The notes under the pieces were generated by a model that searched no databases, was not told where the DNA came from, and saw only the letters and a list, made by a program, of their open reading frames with translations. A stretch of DNA of 64,000 nt from Flavobacteriales bacterium UBA4466 (lineage in GTDB: Bacteria > Bacteroidota > Bacteroidia > Flavobacteriales_D > Crocinitomicaceae). Location of the stretch: contig CAJJBE010000003.1 in NCBI GenBank assembly GCA_905182335.1, positions 1-64,000 of the forward strand, in the 5' to 3' direction. A program made the translations under genes and the position numbers. This document shows positions 33,157-52,820 of the stretch, piece after piece (position 1 is the first letter of the stretch; each line of letters starts with the position of its first letter).

Positions 33157-35283
33157 TTAAACTTCTCCAGCAACTGCCTCAGAAACGTTAATAATATGGT
33201 CACCAACCTTCTCAAAAGAAGAGAATATATTACTGTAAATTAGCGCGCTGTTTATATTGAAATCAGCTGAGTTTTCAATTGTTTTCAGGTGATGTCTTCT
33301 TAATTGATCACGAAGTGTATTAATTTCCTTTTCTTTCGCAATTGCTTTATCTAAAGAAATCGTACCGTAACCTGACACTAAATTGTCATTCATAATATTG
33401 AATGCTTCTTCAGTGACAATGATCATTTTATTAATACCCTCTCTTTGTTCTGGGGTAAAGTAATGATTGTCTTTATCTTTCTTTTCAAGAGCTTTACTCA
33501 TTTGGAAGAATATGTCTCCTATTCGTTCAAGGTCAGTAGATATATTTAACATACTTCTCATTTGGACGGATGCATCATCACTCATTTCTAAACGTGCTGT
33601 TTCACCAAGGTAGTCAGCAATTTCAACTTCAACTCTATCTGTTATTTCTTCATATCGCTCTAGTTTGGTAAGCATTTTATTCTTAACCTTTTTTTCTGAA
33701 GAATTAATATAAGTCTTGATGAATCCATTCATTTTTGAAGTGATTTTACCAAATTTAGCAACTTCTTTTGTTGCTTCAAGAATACAAAGCTCAGCGGTAG
33801 ATCCTAGTGGTCCATTGATGAAATCCAACTTGAATTCTTCATCTGTCTCACCTTTCGATTTAACAAATCTCTCAGCTAAATGAACCAATTGAGGGACAAA
33901 CCAAATTAGAATAAGGACATTGGCTACATTAAATAGAGTATGGAATAACGCAATTCCTGAGTTAGCCATTTCAGTATTTTCAGGATCAAACGTTGAACCA
34001 CCAACGAAATAACCAATCATATCAATAAACCATGGGAAAATTAATATCATCCATAGAACACCTATCAGGTTAAACATAGTGTGTATATATGCTGACCGTT
34101 TTGCGTGAACGTTTGCAATTAACGACGCAATTTGAGCTGTAATTGTTGTTCCAATATTCTCGCCAAGAATCATTGCACAAGCAACTTCGAAAGGAATAGA
34201 CCCTGCTGCTACCATTGTTAGGGTAAGTGCCATTGCTGCAGATGAAGATTGAATAACAACCGTAACTATGGTTCCTAGTAAAACAAACATTAACCTGCCA
34301 TACCAAACATCTTTAAAATCAATAAAGAATTGGACAATACTTGAACCTTCATCAAGCATCGGTACAGTATCTTTTAATGCATCAAGTCCTATAAAAAGAA
34401 TGCAGAAGCCAAAAACGGCACTGGCCCAGGCTCTTGCTGTCCCTTTTGACAGAAATAATAAAGGGGTTGCTATAGCAATAATCATGAAGGCATAACTTGA
34501 TACACTAACCTTAAAGCCTAAGAGTAATACTAGCCAAGCTGTTATCGTTGTTCCAACATTAGCCCCCATCATTACGCCAGCAGATTGTCGTAGCGTCATT
34601 AAACCAGCATTTACGAAACTAACAGTCATTACAGATGTAACAGAAGAAGACTGGACGATTGAGGTAATTCCAAATCCTGTAAGAATACCTTTTAATCTGT
34701 TTGATGTTATTGATCCAAGCATAGAGCGAAGTCTATTCCCAGCAGCTTGCTGTAGCCCTTCACTCATTAATTTCATTCCGAAAATGAAAAATCCTAATGC
34801 ACCAATAAGCATTAATAGCTTTGCTATTCCCCAGCTGCGTTCTGTTTTTGCCTTAGCTTCAGAAGACCAAATGATTTTTTCTTCATTTTTAAAATCAACA
34901 CCTATCTTAAAATAGTAAGATTCATGTCCAGCTAAGTCTTCAATTTTAAAGCTTATTTTGTCAATGTCAATTGGTTTAGTATACATCCATTCTCCTCCGG
35001 AAAGACCTTTTTTAGATCTTTTCTTACCAATTTTGGTGTTATAAGTAATAATTAGCTTAGCATTCTTTGCTTTTAATTTAGTATATGCATCATGGTCAAT
35101 TGCCCATGATATTTCAGCACTTTCTTCACCTCCTTTCGCAGATATGTTTTGAAAAATGTCTGATGTGAAATTGAAACCAACTGTGGCATTATCTTGATTA
35201 ACATCTGTGTTATCAATAGTTGCATGTAACCCTGTAAATAGGAATAGTTGAATTGCTAGTAATAATTTTATGCCTCTAAACAT
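33157..35283 (-). CDS. Na+/phosphate cotransporter (NptA/PF02690) with PhoU-like domain
   Basis: The protein has 708 residues. Order: a signal peptide (about 1-22); an exported beta-rich domain (about 30-150) that looks fibronectin-like (SWAIDHDAY, SYYFKIGVDF); a two-repeat Na/Pi cotransporter membrane domain with the paired QSSS motifs (SIVQSSSVTSV and VVIQSSSAAMA); then a helical C-terminal PhoU-like domain (about 490-708). NptA-type carriers import phosphate with sodium. The PhoU-like tail is thought to sense or regulate flux. The divergent porin gene 199 bases away suggests a matching outer-membrane route. The exported front domain is unusual. Confidence 0.88.
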   Translation of the reverse strand: MFRGIKLLLAIQLFLFTGLHATIDNTDVNQDNATVGFNFTSDIFQNISAKGGEESAEISWAIDHDAYTKLKAKNAKLIITYNTKIGKKRSKKGLSGGEWMYTKPIDIDKISFKIEDLAGHESYYFKIGVDFKNEEKIIWSSEAKAKTERSWGIAKLLMLIGALGFFIFGMKLMSEGLQQAAGNRLRSMLGSITSNRLKGILTGFGITSIVQSSSVTSVMTVSFVNAGLMTLRQSAGVMMGANVGTTITAWLVLLLGFKVSVSSYAFMIIAIATPLLFLSKGTARAWASAVFGFCILFIGLDALKDTVPMLDEGSSIVQFFIDFKDVWYGRLMFVLLGTIVTVVIQSSSAAMALTLTMVAAGSIPFEVACAMILGENIGTTITAQIASLIANVHAKRSAYIHTMFNLIGVLWMILIFPWFIDMIGYFVGGSTFDPENTEMANSGIALFHTLFNVANVLILIWFVPQLVHLAERFVKSKGETDEEFKLDFINGPLGSTAELCILEATKEVAKFGKITSKMNGFIKTYINSSEKKVKNKMLTKLERYEEITDRVEVEIADYLGETARLEMSDDASVQMRSMLNISTDLERIGDIFFQMSKALEKKDKDNHYFTPEQREGINKMIIVTEEAFNIMNDNLVSGYGTISLDKAIAKEKEINTLRDQLRRHHLKTIENSADFNINSALIYSNIFSSFEKVGDHIINVSEAVAGEV

Positions 35284-35314
35284 TAGTGTGTGTGTTTCTT
35301 ATTTTTAATGATTA

Positions 35315-35322
35315 CGAATGTA
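35315..35322 (-). promoter_or_regulatory. Putative variant -7 element for the Na/Pi cotransporter
   Basis: TACATTCG on the minus strand gives a leader of about 28 nt. It lies 31 bases downstream (in the direction of transcription) of the Pho-box-like repeat. Confidence 0.35.
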
Positions 35323-35353
35323 CTCTCTCATATTTAAATAGTGGAGGTTGTAA

Positions 35354-35371
35354 TGTTACGAAAATGTTAAC
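35354..35371. promoter_or_regulatory. Pho-box-like direct repeat between Na/Pi transporter and porin
   Basis: TGTTACG-AAAA-TGTTAAC: two 7-base direct repeats with a 4-base A-rich spacer, the layout of a PhoB box (11-bp period, helical phase). It lies in the divergent gap between two genes predicted to act in phosphate uptake. The base identity is only partly like the enterobacterial consensus, so this rests on layout and context. Confidence 0.4.
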
Positions 35372-35482
35372 CTTTTAATCACTTATTAACTAAATATTAA
35401 TCTTGAGTTAAGCTTGTATTTTTAATGTTAAATCAATATTAAATTGACTCATATTTGTATTCAAATTTAAATAGAATAAGAT

Positions 35483-36694
35483 ATGAGAGTTAGTTTGATT
35501 GTATTGTCTGTATTATTCAGTATTACTTTGTTATCGCAGGATGTTGTAGACACTAAGTTTGGAAAAGGATTGTATAATGTTGTTTCAAAGGATAGCTCGT
35601 GGAGCATGAAGTTTGGACTGAGAATTCAGTCTTTGTATGTTGGTGAGTTTAATTTTAATGATGGGTTCGGCGAAGTGAACTCGAATTTTATGATTAGACG
35701 ATCTAGGTTAAAATTCGGAGGGCATGCATTTTCTCCAAAACTTCAGTACAAAATTGAATTTGGTCTATCGAATAAAGACTTGGGTAAAGTTAACTCGAGA
35801 GGTAATTTTGCGCCAAGAATGATTTTAGATGCCGTTATTAAATGGAATTTTTATGAAAATTTTACATTGTGGGCAGGTCAAACTAAATTACCAGGAAATA
35901 GGGAGCGTGTAATTTCTTCAGCAAATCTTCAATTTGTAGACAGATCATTGTTAAATTCTAAATTTAATATAGATCGTGACATGGGTATTCAACTCCGACA
36001 TCACTTTGTATTAGGTAAAAACTTTTTAGTTCGAGATATGATTTCTATTTCTCAAGGCGAGGGTAGAAATCTAGTTCAAGATAATCTTGGAGGTTTCCAA
36101 TATACTGGCCGTATTGAATTATTACCTATGGGTGCTTTCTCTAGTAAGGGGGATTATGTAGGTGGAGCAACAAAACGTGAAAATACTCCTAAGCTAGCAG
36201 TTGGAATTTCATATGATTACAACGATAGAGCTGTTAAGAATAGAGCAAACATGGGGAGTTATATGTCGTATGATACTGATTTAGATGGAGAAATAGATGG
36301 TTACTTTATGTCTAGTACACGCACAATTTTTTCAGACTTGATGTTTAAGTATAAAGGGTTTTCTGTTATGGCAGAGTATGCTTTAAGAGATGCTGACAAG
36401 GTTGATCATGAGCGTTTAAATGTTGATTCGACATTTACTAGTGCTTCGGTTTCTGTTGGCTCTGGTTTTAATGTTCAAGCAGGATATAATTTCAATAAAA
36501 ACTGGGAGTTAGCCGGAAGATATACTCAAATTTCTTTAGCTGGATATAATACAGATCGACAATTTACTTTAGGTTTATCTAAGTATGTTGTTGGTCACAA
36601 GTTGAAAGTTCAAACGGATTTAAGTTACAGGAAAATAGATGATAGCTCTGATGGAGGTTTGATGTATAGACTCCAGTTTGAATTACATTTTTAA
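35483..36694 (+). CDS. Outer-membrane porin, OprO/OprP (phosphate-selective) family
   Basis: The protein has 403 residues: a signal peptide (ending LLSQ, about residue 18), then a 16-strand-type beta barrel of the Porin_O_P family. Family marks are the MKFGLRIQSLY opening strand, the IRRSRLKFGGHAFSPKLQYKIEF block with its basic residues, and ERVISSANLQFVDRS. It closes with alternating hydrophobic residues and a terminal F (LQFELHF), as needed for barrel insertion. Divergence from the Na/Pi transporter makes phosphate or another small anion a likely substrate, but many Bacteroidota Porin_O_P proteins are uncharacterised. Confidence 0.82.
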   Translation: MRVSLIVLSVLFSITLLSQDVVDTKFGKGLYNVVSKDSSWSMKFGLRIQSLYVGEFNFNDGFGEVNSNFMIRRSRLKFGGHAFSPKLQYKIEFGLSNKDLGKVNSRGNFAPRMILDAVIKWNFYENFTLWAGQTKLPGNRERVISSANLQFVDRSLLNSKFNIDRDMGIQLRHHFVLGKNFLVRDMISISQGEGRNLVQDNLGGFQYTGRIELLPMGAFSSKGDYVGGATKRENTPKLAVGISYDYNDRAVKNRANMGSYMSYDTDLDGEIDGYFMSSTRTIFSDLMFKYKGFSVMAEYALRDADKVDHERLNVDSTFTSASVSVGSGFNVQAGYNFNKNWELAGRYTQISLAGYNTDRQFTLGLSKYVVGHKLKVQTDLSYRKIDDSSDGGLMYRLQFELHF

Positions 36695-36829: not shown

Positions 36830-37951
36830 ATGGGCGCACCACATATTAAGTTCAACGAACAAGACCATCCTGAATTTTTTAAGGTTTTGCGTAAACGCGT
36901 GAATGCCCATTTCAAGGGAAGGAACATATCAAGATACGCGAACTTCAATATGAAGTTTAAAACGTTATTTATGCTGGTGTTGTATTTTACACCTATGGTC
37001 TTGATGTCAACGGGAATGATTCACTCTACTTTGCCAATGATAGCAATGTGGGTCTTAATGGGCTTAGGAATGTCAGGTATTGGTTTGTCTGTAATGCATG
37101 ATGCGAATCACGGTGCTTATTCTAAGAATCAGAAGGTAAATGATATTGTTAGTTTTAGTTTAAATTTTGTAGGTGGATACCCAATTAACTGGAGAATACA
37201 GCATAATGTTTTACATCACTCCTTCACTAATATAGAGGGTTATGATGAAGATATTGAAAAAGGTGTTATGCGTTTTTCACCTACTCAAAAAAGATTAGGT
37301 TTCTTTAAGTTTCAGATTTTTTATGCTCCCATTTTATATGGTGTTTTAACGATATACTGGTTCCTTGTTAAGGATTTTGAGCAATTAATTCGATATGATA
37401 AAAAAGAATTGCTTGAGGCGCATGGGATAACATTGAAGAAAGGACTGTTAATTGTAGTTTTTCATAAAATATGGTATACGTTATTAACATTGGTTCTACC
37501 GATGTATATGTTGAACATTATCTGGTGGCAAGTTTTGCTAGGTTTCTTGCTAATGCATTTTATTAGCGGTATGATTTTAGCTTTGATTTTTCAGCCAGCT
37601 CACGTTGTTCAGGAAACTGAGTTTTTTTCACCTAAAAATGGAACTGTTGAAAACAACTGGGCCATTCATCAAATGAAAACTACATCAAACTTTGCAAATG
37701 GTAGCTTTCTTTTTTCGTGGTTAATAGGGGGATTGAACTATCAAATAGAACATCATCTATTCCCGAATATTTGTCATGTTCACTATAGAAACATTGCACC
37801 TATCGTGAAAGAAACAGCAAAAGAGTTTGGTGTTCCTTATTATCATAATAAAACATTTTATAATGCTCTTGTTAGCCATTTTACACTGTTGAATAAATTG
37901 GGTACGGGAGATTACGACAAGCATCTTGAAGAGATGAATACAGCTCGTTAA
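36830..37951 (+). CDS. Membrane fatty acid desaturase (acyl-lipid/acyl-CoA type)
   Basis: The protein has 373 residues with four main membrane spans and the three di-iron histidine boxes: HDANHG, HNVLHH and QIEHHLF (the QxxHH form seen in front-end and linoleoyl-CoA-type desaturases). It introduces a double bond into acyl chains using O2 and ferredoxin-type or cytochrome b5 electrons, probably for membrane fluidity at low temperature. No fused cytochrome b5 domain is present. The position of desaturation cannot be assigned from sequence. Confidence 0.9.
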   Translation: MGAPHIKFNEQDHPEFFKVLRKRVNAHFKGRNISRYANFNMKFKTLFMLVLYFTPMVLMSTGMIHSTLPMIAMWVLMGLGMSGIGLSVMHDANHGAYSKNQKVNDIVSFSLNFVGGYPINWRIQHNVLHHSFTNIEGYDEDIEKGVMRFSPTQKRLGFFKFQIFYAPILYGVLTIYWFLVKDFEQLIRYDKKELLEAHGITLKKGLLIVVFHKIWYTLLTLVLPMYMLNIIWWQVLLGFLLMHFISGMILALIFQPAHVVQETEFFSPKNGTVENNWAIHQMKTTSNFANGSFLFSWLIGGLNYQIEHHLFPNICHVHYRNIAPIVKETAKEFGVPYYHNKTFYNALVSHFTLLNKLGTGDYDKHLEEMNTAR

Positions 37952-38020: not shown

Positions 38021-38731
38021 TTAATTAAAGGCTATACCCAATAAATCATCTTTTGAAACAGGTGATTTCATAAAGGTTAATTCAGAAGTTTTATTGTTGG
38101 TTGCTAAAAAGTCACAAGCTGTGTCAATACTTAATTCTAAATCATGGGAAGATAGGACAATACATTTGTTTGTCTTCTTTGCTATTCTTTTTAATGTATG
38201 ATGAAGTAATGACTTGTTTGAATAGTCTAAAAATGCAGTAGGTTCGTCGAGTAGAATCACCGATGTATCTTGAGCGATTGCTTTTGCAATTGCCACTAAT
38301 TGTCTTTCCCCATCAGATAGTTCTGAAGTGAATTTATTAATTAGTGGAACACTATTTAAAATCTCAAGTGATTTATGAATAATCTCGTTGTCTTTTTGAC
38401 GCAGACGGCCTAAGCTCTTTGTATAAGGAGAACGGCCAAGCGCTACAAAATCAAATACAGTTAAATAATCTGTTTTAGGAAACGTTGATTTAACCAATGA
38501 GATTTTCTTTGATAGTTCAATTCTTGAATAAGAATGAACATTTTTACTATCAATAATAATCTCACCAGACAACAATGGTTGAGAACCAATTATTGATTTA
38601 AGTAGTGATGACTTTCCTGATCCATTTTTGCCAATAAGTATATATAATTCTCCTTTGTTTAGTTTTAGTGAATCAATAGAAATAAGAGGGGTTTTATTAA
38701 AGCCAATCGATACGTTATTAAATGTAATCAT
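38021..38731 (-). CDS. FecE/BtuD-type ABC transporter ATP-binding protein
   Basis: A 236-residue ATPase with Walker A GKNGSGKSSL, signature region LSDGERQLVAIAKA (LSDGE variant of LSGGQ), Walker B VILLDEPTAFLD and switch His in LSSHDLE. It powers the FecCD permease whose stop codon overlaps its start by four bases (ATGA), so the two are translationally coupled. Substrate class is an iron-siderophore, heme or cobalamin chelate. Confidence 0.9.
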   Translation of the reverse strand: MITFNNVSIGFNKTPLISIDSLKLNKGELYILIGKNGSGKSSLLKSIIGSQPLLSGEIIIDSKNVHSYSRIELSKKISLVKSTFPKTDYLTVFDFVALGRSPYTKSLGRLRQKDNEIIHKSLEILNSVPLINKFTSELSDGERQLVAIAKAIAQDTSVILLDEPTAFLDYSNKSLLHHTLKRIAKKTNKCIVLSSHDLELSIDTACDFLATNNKTSELTFMKSPVSKDDLLGIAFN

Positions 38732-39726
38732 GCTAAACGTTTTAAAACGATTAATACTACAAATGGGGCTCCAACAAGAGATGTTAATGCATTGATGGGA
38801 ATGTGAATGTTACTTTCTAACAGTTGAATCAGTATATCACACACTAAAACAAAACCTCCTCCAATAAAAACTGAAGCGAAGATCAATGTGAAATGATTCT
38901 GTGTTTTAAATGTTATTCGAACCAAATTAGGTACAGCCAATCCTACAAAAGCTATTGGGCCACAGAATGCTGTAATTAAACCCGTTAATAGTGCTGTAAT
39001 ACTTATTATGAATAAGCGTATCGTTTTAGAGTTTACACCAAGTAATATTGCATCTTCTTCTCCAATTACTAATGTGTTGAGAGGTTTAACTAATAGTATT
39101 GATCCAATCAGTCCTAAAATGAATAAAAAAGTAATTATTGGTAGTTGTGACAACTCAGTATTTTGTAAAGAGCCCATTGCCCAAATTGTAAATGATTTAA
39201 GTTCTTCCGATGAGCTTGCAGATTGCAGAATGAAAACAATAGCTCCTGTAAAGCTACCTAGCATAAGTCCAAGAAGTAAGAGAGATACATTTGATCTTAC
39301 AAGAGAGGAAAAAAACAAAATAAGGATTCCAAATGTAAAGGCTCCAATTAGTGCGCTTGAGATGACTCCTAAGTCTGAACTTAAAAATGGTATGCCGGTC
39401 ATGATACTAAAAGCAACAAACAAGCTAGATCCAGAATTAATACCTAGTACAAACGGACCTGCTAGCGGATTGTTAAATAGTGTTTGCATTAGTAGTCCGG
39501 CTAATGATAGTCCGGCTCCAGTAATTACGGCCATAAGCATTCTTGGTAAACGTAATTCACGTATTATTAGTTGGTTCGTATTTTCATGATTATAATTAAA
39601 AAATGAATCGATAAAATCTTGAAATCCGATATTTATTTCCCCACTAAATAAATGAACAAGGCATAATACAGGTAAGAGAATACCCGAAATTATCAAAAAG
39701 ACCGATTGTTTTTTTGTTAGATTCAT
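38728..39726 (-). CDS. FecCD-family ABC transporter permease
   Basis: A 332-residue inner-membrane permease with about nine or ten spans. It shows the family blocks LPRMLMAVITGAGLSLAG, QTLFNNPLAGPFVLGINSG and AFCGPIAFVGLAVPNLVR. It forms a homodimer channel in type II importers such as BtuCD and FhuBC. Its start overlaps the stop of the binding-protein gene by one base (TAATG), so the three genes form a tight operon transcribed in the order binding protein, permease, ATPase. Confidence 0.93.
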   Translation of the reverse strand: MNLTKKQSVFLIISGILLPVLCLVHLFSGEINIGFQDFIDSFFNYNHENTNQLIIRELRLPRMLMAVITGAGLSLAGLLMQTLFNNPLAGPFVLGINSGSSLFVAFSIMTGIPFLSSDLGVISSALIGAFTFGILILFFSSLVRSNVSLLLLGLMLGSFTGAIVFILQSASSSEELKSFTIWAMGSLQNTELSQLPIITFLFILGLIGSILLVKPLNTLVIGEEDAILLGVNSKTIRLFIISITALLTGLITAFCGPIAFVGLAVPNLVRITFKTQNHFTLIFASVFIGGGFVLVCDILIQLLESNIHIPINALTSLVGAPFVVLIVLKRLA

Positions 39727-40823
39727 TATTTAATGTTCTTGTAAAAATACAAAGAATCCGAAGTTTTCACTTCAGGGTGAAAAATATGAATGAAATCTGA
39801 CAAAACATTATGTGGTTCAATGGTGCTTCGTTCCCAAAATAGATTCGTATTATGAGAATAGCAATAGGTATTTTTTTCTAGAGGATCTATGTGTTTTAAT
39901 TTATGATTTAATTCTAATATAGCATCTCGACTTGAGAAGCCTGGGTTGATCCAATAATCAGTCTCAGTATTTTCTTTAATTACGCGCTCCAGAGATAGTT
40001 GAACACTTCCTGTACCTAATGTACTTTGATATTTATATTTTACATTAGCATCTTCAAGCATCTGCGCCACAAAGCTATTTCCGCTTGGAGCATACCAAAT
40101 GTCTCCTAAAATATTTCCACTCAGTACCGTTGGCATATCGTTAAGTAGTTTTACTTCTTCTTTCAATTCGAGATATTTCGATTCAATTTTATTAAAATAA
40201 CGCTCAGCAGCTTCGGTTTTATCTGATAGAGCACCAAATAGTTTTATCCATTCTGCTTTACCTAGAGGATGTGTTTCTCGCCAATCGTAAATTGGGAGAG
40301 ATTTGATTCCTAGAGCGTTAAGCTTTTTACTTCCTGGAAAATCACTTCCAAAGCCACTGTATAGAATTAACTGAGCTTTTATTTGTATAATTTTTTCTAA
40401 TGGAAGATTTGATTCTACCCCGACTTCTATTATTTGATTGTTTTTAATACGCTCCAAGGTTTGTTTGTCATAGATATAATTTTTCCCTGAAACACCTACA
40501 ATTCTATCTTGTTCATTAAGAGTTGACAACATGCCAATACTTGTCCCTGATAAAGCAATCAACTTTGAGGTTGGGATTGTAATTGTTGTGTATCCATTTT
40601 TTGAGTTTTCAGCGTCTTTTGTTAAAAAAAAACGAAGTTCAATCTCTCCTGAATCTGGACTTATAAAGTGAAGTAGGAAATCACCTTTTGATTTGATTAA
40701 CTCAAAATGTGAAGCATAAGAAATCAATGATTTCTCATTGTTATTTGATATATTGGAGTGCTTGACATCTGGACGACATCCAATTGTAATTAATGATATA
40801 AACAGTAAAATATTAATCTTCAT
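39726..40823 (-). CDS. FecB/BtuF-type substrate-binding lipoprotein
   Basis: The mature part is a Peripla_BP_2 fold: SGTSIGMLSTLNEQDRIVGVSG, a single helical backbone linker, and a C-terminal lobe ending near DILHIFHP-like residues. The signal peptide has lipobox ITIGC, so it is anchored as a lipoprotein. I start at ATG 40823. An upstream ATG at 40859 would add 12 residues before the signal peptide, leaving it internal, and sits against the rplI terminator. Ligand could be an iron or cobalt chelate. No TonB-dependent receptor is encoded nearby to narrow it. Confidence 0.87.
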   Translation of the reverse strand: MKINILLFISLITIGCRPDVKHSNISNNNEKSLISYASHFELIKSKGDFLLHFISPDSGEIELRFFLTKDAENSKNGYTTITIPTSKLIALSGTSIGMLSTLNEQDRIVGVSGKNYIYDKQTLERIKNNQIIEVGVESNLPLEKIIQIKAQLILYSGFGSDFPGSKKLNALGIKSLPIYDWRETHPLGKAEWIKLFGALSDKTEAAERYFNKIESKYLELKEEVKLLNDMPTVLSGNILGDIWYAPSGNSFVAQMLEDANVKYKYQSTLGTGSVQLSLERVIKENTETDYWINPGFSSRDAILELNHKLKHIDPLEKNTYCYSHNTNLFWERSTIEPHNVLSDFIHIFHPEVKTSDSLYFYKNIK

Positions 40824-40856
40824 GATGCAAAGGAAAGGTAAATTGGGAGAGTAGAG

Positions 40857-40890
40857 CAAAAAAAATCCTCTATCAATCGATAGAGGATTT
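40857..40890 (-). terminator. Intrinsic terminator of the rpsF-rpsR-rplI operon
   Basis: A perfect 12-bp stem AAATCCTCTATC/GATAGAGGATTT with loop AATC (40863-40890). On the minus strand it is followed by a T-run. It lies between rplI and the binding-protein gene. Confidence 0.9.
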
Positions 40891-52729: not shown

Positions 52730-52820
52730 CATAAGCTGTTAACGAAGTGTTAAAAAAAGGCTTTATTCATTACCTTAGGTTATATTTACAGTAGAATATC
52801 AAACTTAAATAAATTAAAAT

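Follow-up and report, generated by a model that had tools for sequence, protein, structure and literature searches.

A TTAA repeat array as candidate Pho operator between a Na/Pi carrier gene and an OprO/P-like porin gene in Crocinitomicaceae

Results

The locus and its genes

The window, i.e. the whole stretch of 64,000 nucleotides analysed, is part of contig C3 of a 2.36-Mb genome that is 91.9% complete, and the named genomes closest to this host are Crocinitomicaceae MAGs. Two divergent genes and the region between them contain the following features:

33157..35283, minus strand: Na/Pi carrier with a signal peptide, an FN3-like front (residues ~38-152), a Na_Pi_cotrans core with two QSSS motifs and a C-terminal PhoU domain
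34828..35172, minus strand: codons of the exported FN3-like front domain, supported by AlphaFold and Foldseek
35284..35482, no strand: common divergent promoter region of 199 bp between the carrier and porin starts
35315..35322, minus strand: carrier -7-like element TACATTCG; locus L009 of a relative has TACATTTG
35354..35371, plus strand: box of the first-pass annotation, TGTTACG-AAAA-TGTTAAC, half-sites spaced 11 bp, the pair of the array nearest the carrier
35373..35412, plus strand: four further half-sites, TTAA cores at 35375, 35386, 35397 and 35408, 11 bp apart
35397..35442, no strand: two-pair array TTAA-N7-TTAA-N16-TTAA-N7-TTAA with a 31-bp pair spacing, from the genome-wide exact scan
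35426..35443, plus strand: porin-proximal pair TGTTAAA-N4-TATTAAA, the best conserved pair in near relatives
35450..35457, plus strand: porin -7-like element CATATTTG; relatives have ATCTTTG at the same place
35483..36694, plus strand: OprO/P-like porin (Porin_O_P), the single PF07396 match in its own genome

The Bacteroidota -7 consensus is TAnnTTTG, and both -7-like elements were named by likeness to this sequence. The first-pass annotation, made from the letters of the DNA, had described a carrier with a PhoU-like tail facing a Porin_O_P barrel over 199 bp, and both the coordinates and the Pfam scores agree with this description. The carrier matches PF02690 (Na_Pi_cotrans) with 199.1 bits, exceeding the curated cut-off of 29.1, its PhoU domain (44.4 bits) is above the curated cut-off, and TIGR00704 is also passed (216 vs a cut-off of 210.1). 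Its paired QSSS motifs (Q211-S214 and Q345-S348) are invariant across 9 relatives. Judged by PF02690 and the paired QSSS motifs, the carrier is a member of the Na/Pi cotransporter (SLC34/NptA) type, and Na+-coupled Pi transport is predicted. The facing gene product is a Porin_O_P as judged by its PF07396 score (43.2 bits vs a cut-off of 20.9, covering residues 45-389), with putative phosphate selectivity. Further along the window, an ABC-type ATPase, a permease and a binding protein resembling an iron/cobalamin importer (38021-40859) stand downstream of a desaturase-like gene (36830-37951), all of these being identified by eye only.

The exported beta-rich front domain that had been noticed on the carrier is real. 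The full-length model of the carrier was poor (pLDDT 62.3, pTM 0.38) and served only for picking the front domain to be remodelled. Modelled separately, residues 38-152 gave an AlphaFold pLDDT of 91.3, and the PDB matches listed by Foldseek for this model were FN3-type modules (best E value 1.2e-5, TM score of the top-ranked match 0.64). A Pfam fn3 search of the carrier at an E threshold of 0.1 gave no match. According to the model, the front domain is of the fibronectin-III fold. It had been presented as an oddity; since tblastn found it in 34/34 relative loci supplied, with 24-69% identity, it is no peculiarity of the host genome.

Phosphate importers in the host and in the family

Among 60 family genomes, the carrier was found in 32 and PiT in 29, with both in 3 and neither in 2. 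In this tally, three genomes whose carrier matches were weak or confined to PhoU were left out, as were two whose PHO4 matches were weak; some of the carriers counted begin to match at residue 98 or beyond, or are truncated at the end of a contig. This near-exclusion of the two importers gives a Fisher p of 2.5e-11 over the 60 genomes, uncorrected for phylogeny. PstB was above cut-off in 4/60 family genomes, 0 of them carrier genomes. The host genome contains one carrier gene and one Porin_O_P gene, and neither a PstB above cut-off nor a PiT was found in it at its ~92% completeness. The single carrier-porin pair therefore seems to be the recognisable Pi route of the host, given this completeness.

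An array of TTAA half-sites between the two genes

TTAA cores stand at 35367, 35375, 35386, 35397, 35408, 35428 and 35439 of the gap, among others, and make up an array of about eight half-sites. This array is far beyond chance: four TTAA pairs at 11 bp are present, and 2000 shuffles of the gap gave a mean of 0.09, with 0/2000 reaching four. The first-pass annotation had singled out a 7+4+7 repeat like a PhoB box, of which the 11-bp spacing stood, but the 18-mer is one pair of the longer array and is unspecific when taken alone. Its two 7-mers are 5/7 identical, and its score against TGTTAA-N5-TGTTAA (11/12) is equalled by 10/500 dinucleotide shuffles of the gap. When the host genome was scanned with the 18-mer at up to 3 mismatches, no enrichment appeared (237 matches vs 500 for a reversed control pattern). 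Because shuffles match it and the scan stays below the control, the 18-mer alone is little proof, and we dropped it as a genome-wide marker. Single GTTAA-N6-GTTAA boxes were dropped as well, as they showed no enrichment in the host genome (12 vs 28 for the control, 1/12 being at the PhoB-like regulator gap), and TGTTAA-N5-TGTTAA run over 60 genomes gave scattered matches, many among the matches listed, and was kept as a lead only. The two-pair array has one exact match in the 2.36-Mb genome, at 35397-35442. The box had also been said to differ from the enterobacterial consensus, and the half-sites are indeed of the TGTTAA/TTAACA type and not the enterobacterial one. Only one other gap of the window has an 11-bp TTAA pair, at 52730-52820, before a protein starting MKKVLLSLAVMFVTV; it is a single pair, possibly due to chance.

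The pair adjoining the porin promoter (35426-35443) is distinct from the box singled out earlier, with 6 bp between its downstream end and the porin -7-like element; the box, for its part, is ~31 bp upstream of the corresponding carrier element. Judged by these distances, the positions of the pairs relative to both elements are in activator geometry.

Conservation in orthologous gaps

Sixteen carrier loci were taken from named genomes, in which the porin is divergent and adjoining in 11, matched elsewhere in the locus in 3 and not found in 2. Three blocks stand out as conserved in a six-way alignment of near relatives: the earlier box, the porin-proximal pair together with the ATCTTTG-like -7 element after it, and, towards the carrier, an element like TACATTCG. 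Compared with L009, half-site and -7 columns are identical at 38/44 positions vs 90/136 for the remaining columns. Of 15 gaps where a carrier faces a porin, near relatives included, 13 have TTAA pairs spaced 11 bp, 14 have pairs spaced 31 bp and 11 have pairs spaced 42 bp. The repeat is thus kept in the orthologous gaps of relatives.

Association with phosphate genes in Crocinitomicaceae

Loci around carriers, PhoB-like regulators, pst and PiT were fetched in the family, giving 437 gaps after removal of exact duplicates alone; near relatives are counted separately, so the gap counts are not independent, and gap borders were set by the longest ORFs, some gene starts being approximate. In 167 Pho gaps, the TTAA spacing peaks at 11 bp with 306 pairs vs a shuffled mean of 27.5, and 42 in 270 control gaps, all these counts taking both strands and each TTAA pair twice. 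Further peaks in these gaps lie at 22, 31 and 42 bp. Sorted by neighbouring genes, the 11-bp pair is present in 36/46 carrier/porin gaps (3.7 in shuffled sequences), 29/62 regulator/kinase (PhoB/PhoR-type) gaps (5.5), 25/48 lipoprotein/TonB-receptor gaps (2.8) and 4/11 PiT/pst gaps (1.3), vs 18/193 other upstream gaps (9.6) and 1/77 convergent gaps. At 8-10 and 12-14 bp, pairs occur in 3-7 carrier/porin, 2-9 regulator/kinase and 2-6 lipoprotein/TonB gaps. The 31-bp pair spacing is weak in regulator/kinase gaps (14/62) and absent as a signal in lipoprotein/TonB gaps (5/48).

Over the 60 genomes, the exact two-pair array occurs 8 times, all before phosphate genes, and a control pattern in 4 places. 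The eight arrays are in the host gap, another carrier/porin gap, a porin/DUF47-PiT gap, before a PHO4-like gene, in three PhoB-type regulator gaps (TonB/lipoprotein), and before a gene for a protein with a purple-acid-phosphatase N-domain and a Metallophos domain. Among relatives, the repeat is found again at genes for pst, PiT, porins and phoB-type regulators. The array before the purple-acid-phosphatase-like protein lies at G003:C62:598-643 (L326), and this protein is likely a further regulon member. In two PiT genomes (L330 of G014 and L068 of G037), DUF47-PiT replaces the carrier and faces a porin or pstS across a like array. Phosphatases of the host itself were dropped as regulon members: no 11-bp pair precedes either of its two Metallophos genes, the pairs in their loci being all intra-coding, and a search of the host genome for PhoD found none.

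A candidate regulator

The host encodes a PhoB-like regulator beside a PhoR-like kinase on contig C2:

L067, 3099-3776: PhoB-like regulator of the host genome

Its best matches are to PhoB models, with 204 of 296.2 bits (TIGR02154) and 200 of 270 (NF053854), and as these scores are below the PhoB equivalog cut-offs we call it PhoB-type and not PhoB. The best NCBIfam match of the kinase is PnpS/PhoR, below cut-off. The gap from the regulator to a divergent lipoprotein and TonB receptor has three phased TTAA cores. In another genome (G013), a single cluster combines pst, a TonB receptor, a lipoprotein of similar start and a PhoB-like regulator with its kinase, which supports the assignment of the regulator as PhoB-type. 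Likewise, the PhoBR operon of F. johnsoniae has OprP, a TonB receptor and lipoproteins, according to the accessible text of PMC8115612. The carrier (C3) and the regulator (C2) of the host are unlinked; in 21/32 carrier genomes, the host not among them, the distance from the carrier to a PhoB-like regulator is no more than 10 kb, and the same holds for PiT in 9/29 PiT genomes. Family genomes carry many OmpR-type regulators, and a second PhoB-like paralogue stands 5 kb from the host regulator. In the host (L067, 3777-4021) and in the homologous clusters L165, L166, L168 and L170, two PhoB-like regulators flank the lipoprotein, which has no Pfam or NCBIfam match, and the TonB receptor; in many relatives this two-regulator cluster also includes the carrier and the porin. 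A role of its own is possible for the second regulator.

The 11-bp repeat in other Bacteroidia

PstB is above cut-off in 50/149 Bacteroidia-level genomes. Forty pst loci were fetched, and 67 gaps before pst or porin genes were tested. In an unsupervised test of all 4-6-mers over these gaps, GTTA, GTTAA, TTAA and their complements came top for 11-bp recurrence (vs background: GTTA 30 vs 1.0, GTTAA 16 vs 0.26, TTAA 72 vs 5.0). The 11-bp pair is present in 23/67 pst/porin gaps and 18/36 loci. It is also present in 14/77 'other' gaps, which are impure controls: 7 of these 14 adjoin a gene matching by BLAST a regulator, lipoprotein, DUF47 or porin, and several more look porin-flanked by eye. The 31-bp pair spacing was dropped as a Bacteroidia-wide rule, showing no excess in class-level pst gaps (3 pairs).

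Discussion

A model for phosphate control of the two genes

The array, its conservation, its link to phosphate genes and the lack of matches to Pst and PiT in the host can all be read from the DNA. Since the array recurs at phosphate-uptake and phosphate-sensing genes of relatives, it is probably the binding site of the phosphate-starvation regulator in these bacteria. We consider it likely that the gap is the operator of a PhoB-type response regulator, common to the carrier and the porin, and that both genes are raised in low Pi. On the TGTTAA-type half-sites, which repeat every 11 bp, the regulator would form side-by-side dimers, each of them ~31 bp, or about three turns of the helix, from the next. 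From the pair adjoining the porin -7 element, it would bring RNA polymerase to the porin promoter, and from the upstream pair, i.e. the box singled out earlier, to that of the carrier, so that low phosphate would raise expression of both genes. Pi would cross the outer membrane by the porin and be imported by the Na+-driven carrier, whose PhoU domain may report uptake to the PhoR-type kinase, replacing Pst-PhoU. PhoB binding to the array, activation of both genes and the PhoU feedback are what we infer.

Several published results bear on this model, here as given in the accessible parts of the sources. In Riemerella, PhoP is up in Pi starvation and binds TTTAACA in vitro (DAP-seq) and its own promoter (EMSA) (PMC9603813). 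In S. aureus, nptA depends on PhoPR and goes up at low Pi, and at intermediate Pi its expression rises when the PhoU domain of NptA is removed (PMC13170248). In B. fragilis at low Pi, the Na/Pi carrier BF4351 is changed -101-fold in a PhoB-dependent manner, being unchanged in a phoB deletion, and the porin-O genes BF0375 and BF2289 change by +3.55 and -3.16 (PMC3547664). In F. johnsoniae, OprP did not rise (PMC8115612). The repression of BF4351, the fall of BF2289 and the OprP result speak against our explanation, as do the sub-cut-off regulator with a second paralogue 5 kb from it, the unlinked carrier and regulator, the restriction of the pair to 18/36 pst loci, and the missing enrichment of single GTTAA-N6-GTTAA boxes in the host genome.

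The BF4351 result in particular would fit control of opposite sign on one side of the gap, the regulator in starvation activating the porin and repressing the carrier as a low-affinity importer. Half-site orientation also points this way, CTTAACATT reading toward carrier, regulator and DUF47-PiT genes and AATGTTAAG toward porin, TonB receptor, lipoprotein and pstS genes; however, TTAA is palindromic, and half-site polarity is therefore poorly defined. The pair ~31 bp upstream of the carrier -7-like element is, moreover, in an activator position, and S. aureus nptA goes up at low Pi. As the carrier is the sole recognisable Pi importer, with no Pst above cut-off and no PiT in the host, shutting it in starvation would be self-defeating, and we regard this opposite control as unlikely. 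Because no other importer was found in the host, activation of both carrier and porin in starvation is judged the more likely outcome.

The site could also belong to a different OmpR-family regulator, ArcA-like or the neighbouring paralogue, with no phosphate switch. The motif of Riemerella PhoP resembles that of E. coli ArcA, according to its authors in the accessible text (PMC9603813), many OmpR-type regulators are encoded in the family genomes and two PhoB-like paralogues flank the TonB/lipoprotein genes, but the sites concentrate at Pi carriers, PiT, pst, porins, a purple acid phosphatase and PhoB/PhoR-type genes, which makes this assignment improbable. It is hardly credible that the array is a chance or DNA-curvature repeat of AT-rich intergenic DNA: the 18-mer alone is equalled by shuffles and single boxes lack genome enrichment, but the pairs are spaced 11 bp rather than 10 or 12, half-sites are kept while their surroundings diverge (see the comparison with L009) and pairs are nearly missing from convergent gaps.

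Beyond the operator model, we tentatively propose a closed loop for Pst-less bacteria, which we hold to be possible but rather doubtful. The PhoU-fused carrier (or, for the remaining half of the family, PiT with a DUF47/PhoU-like partner) would itself sense phosphate, its PhoU would signal uptake to a PhoR-type kinase, and the 31-bp-phased TTAA array would return the signal to carrier and porin, importer types having been swapped within the same Pho cluster in evolution.

Comparison with known systems

TTAA-core Pho boxes with an 11-bp period are also known in Bacillus. The open-access literature searched (preprints excluded) yielded no Bacteroidota Pho operator with its spacing, the closest being the Riemerella DAP-seq half-site. 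As far as we have seen in this literature, the 31-bp pairing at carrier-porin gaps and the exchange of carrier and PiT within one Pho cluster are undescribed. A defined Bacteroidota Pho operator would make phosphate regulons predictable in a phylum that is abundant in marine, soil and gut habitats.

The following comparisons hold for the accessible parts of the sources. The Pho box of cyanobacterial SphR (PhoB) consists of CTTAACCT repeats with 3-bp linkers (PMC1906773) and shares with our array the TTAA core, the 11-bp period and tandem copies, the SphR copies preceding pst and phosphatase genes; the array differs by its CTTAACATT/AATGTTAAG half-sites, its 31-bp pair recurrence in carrier-porin gaps and its different genes. 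Like the array, the E. coli PhoB box has two direct repeats with an 11-bp period, ~10 bp upstream of the -10 element (PMC1906773), but here the half-site is TGTTAA-type and not CTGT-type and the array has about eight. The R. anatipestifer motif TTTAACA is the same half-site on the complementary strand, from the same phylum and for a regulator that is up in Pi starvation, whereas that PhoP has 583 peaks and a broad regulon, and repeat spacing, a Pho box or a phosphate-transport target were not found in the text (PMC9603813). In B. fragilis, PhoB controls pst, porin-O genes and a Na/Pi carrier and binds the pstC promoter; there the carrier is repressed, and an operator sequence was not found in the text (PMC3547664). 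Finally, S. aureus NptA is likewise a Na/Pi carrier fused to PhoU, under a phosphate two-component system (PMC13170248). In contrast to NptA, the carrier described here has an FN3-like exported front and a partner porin, in a genome where no Pst or PiT was found, and such a system would be a clean case for how PhoR senses phosphate without Pst.
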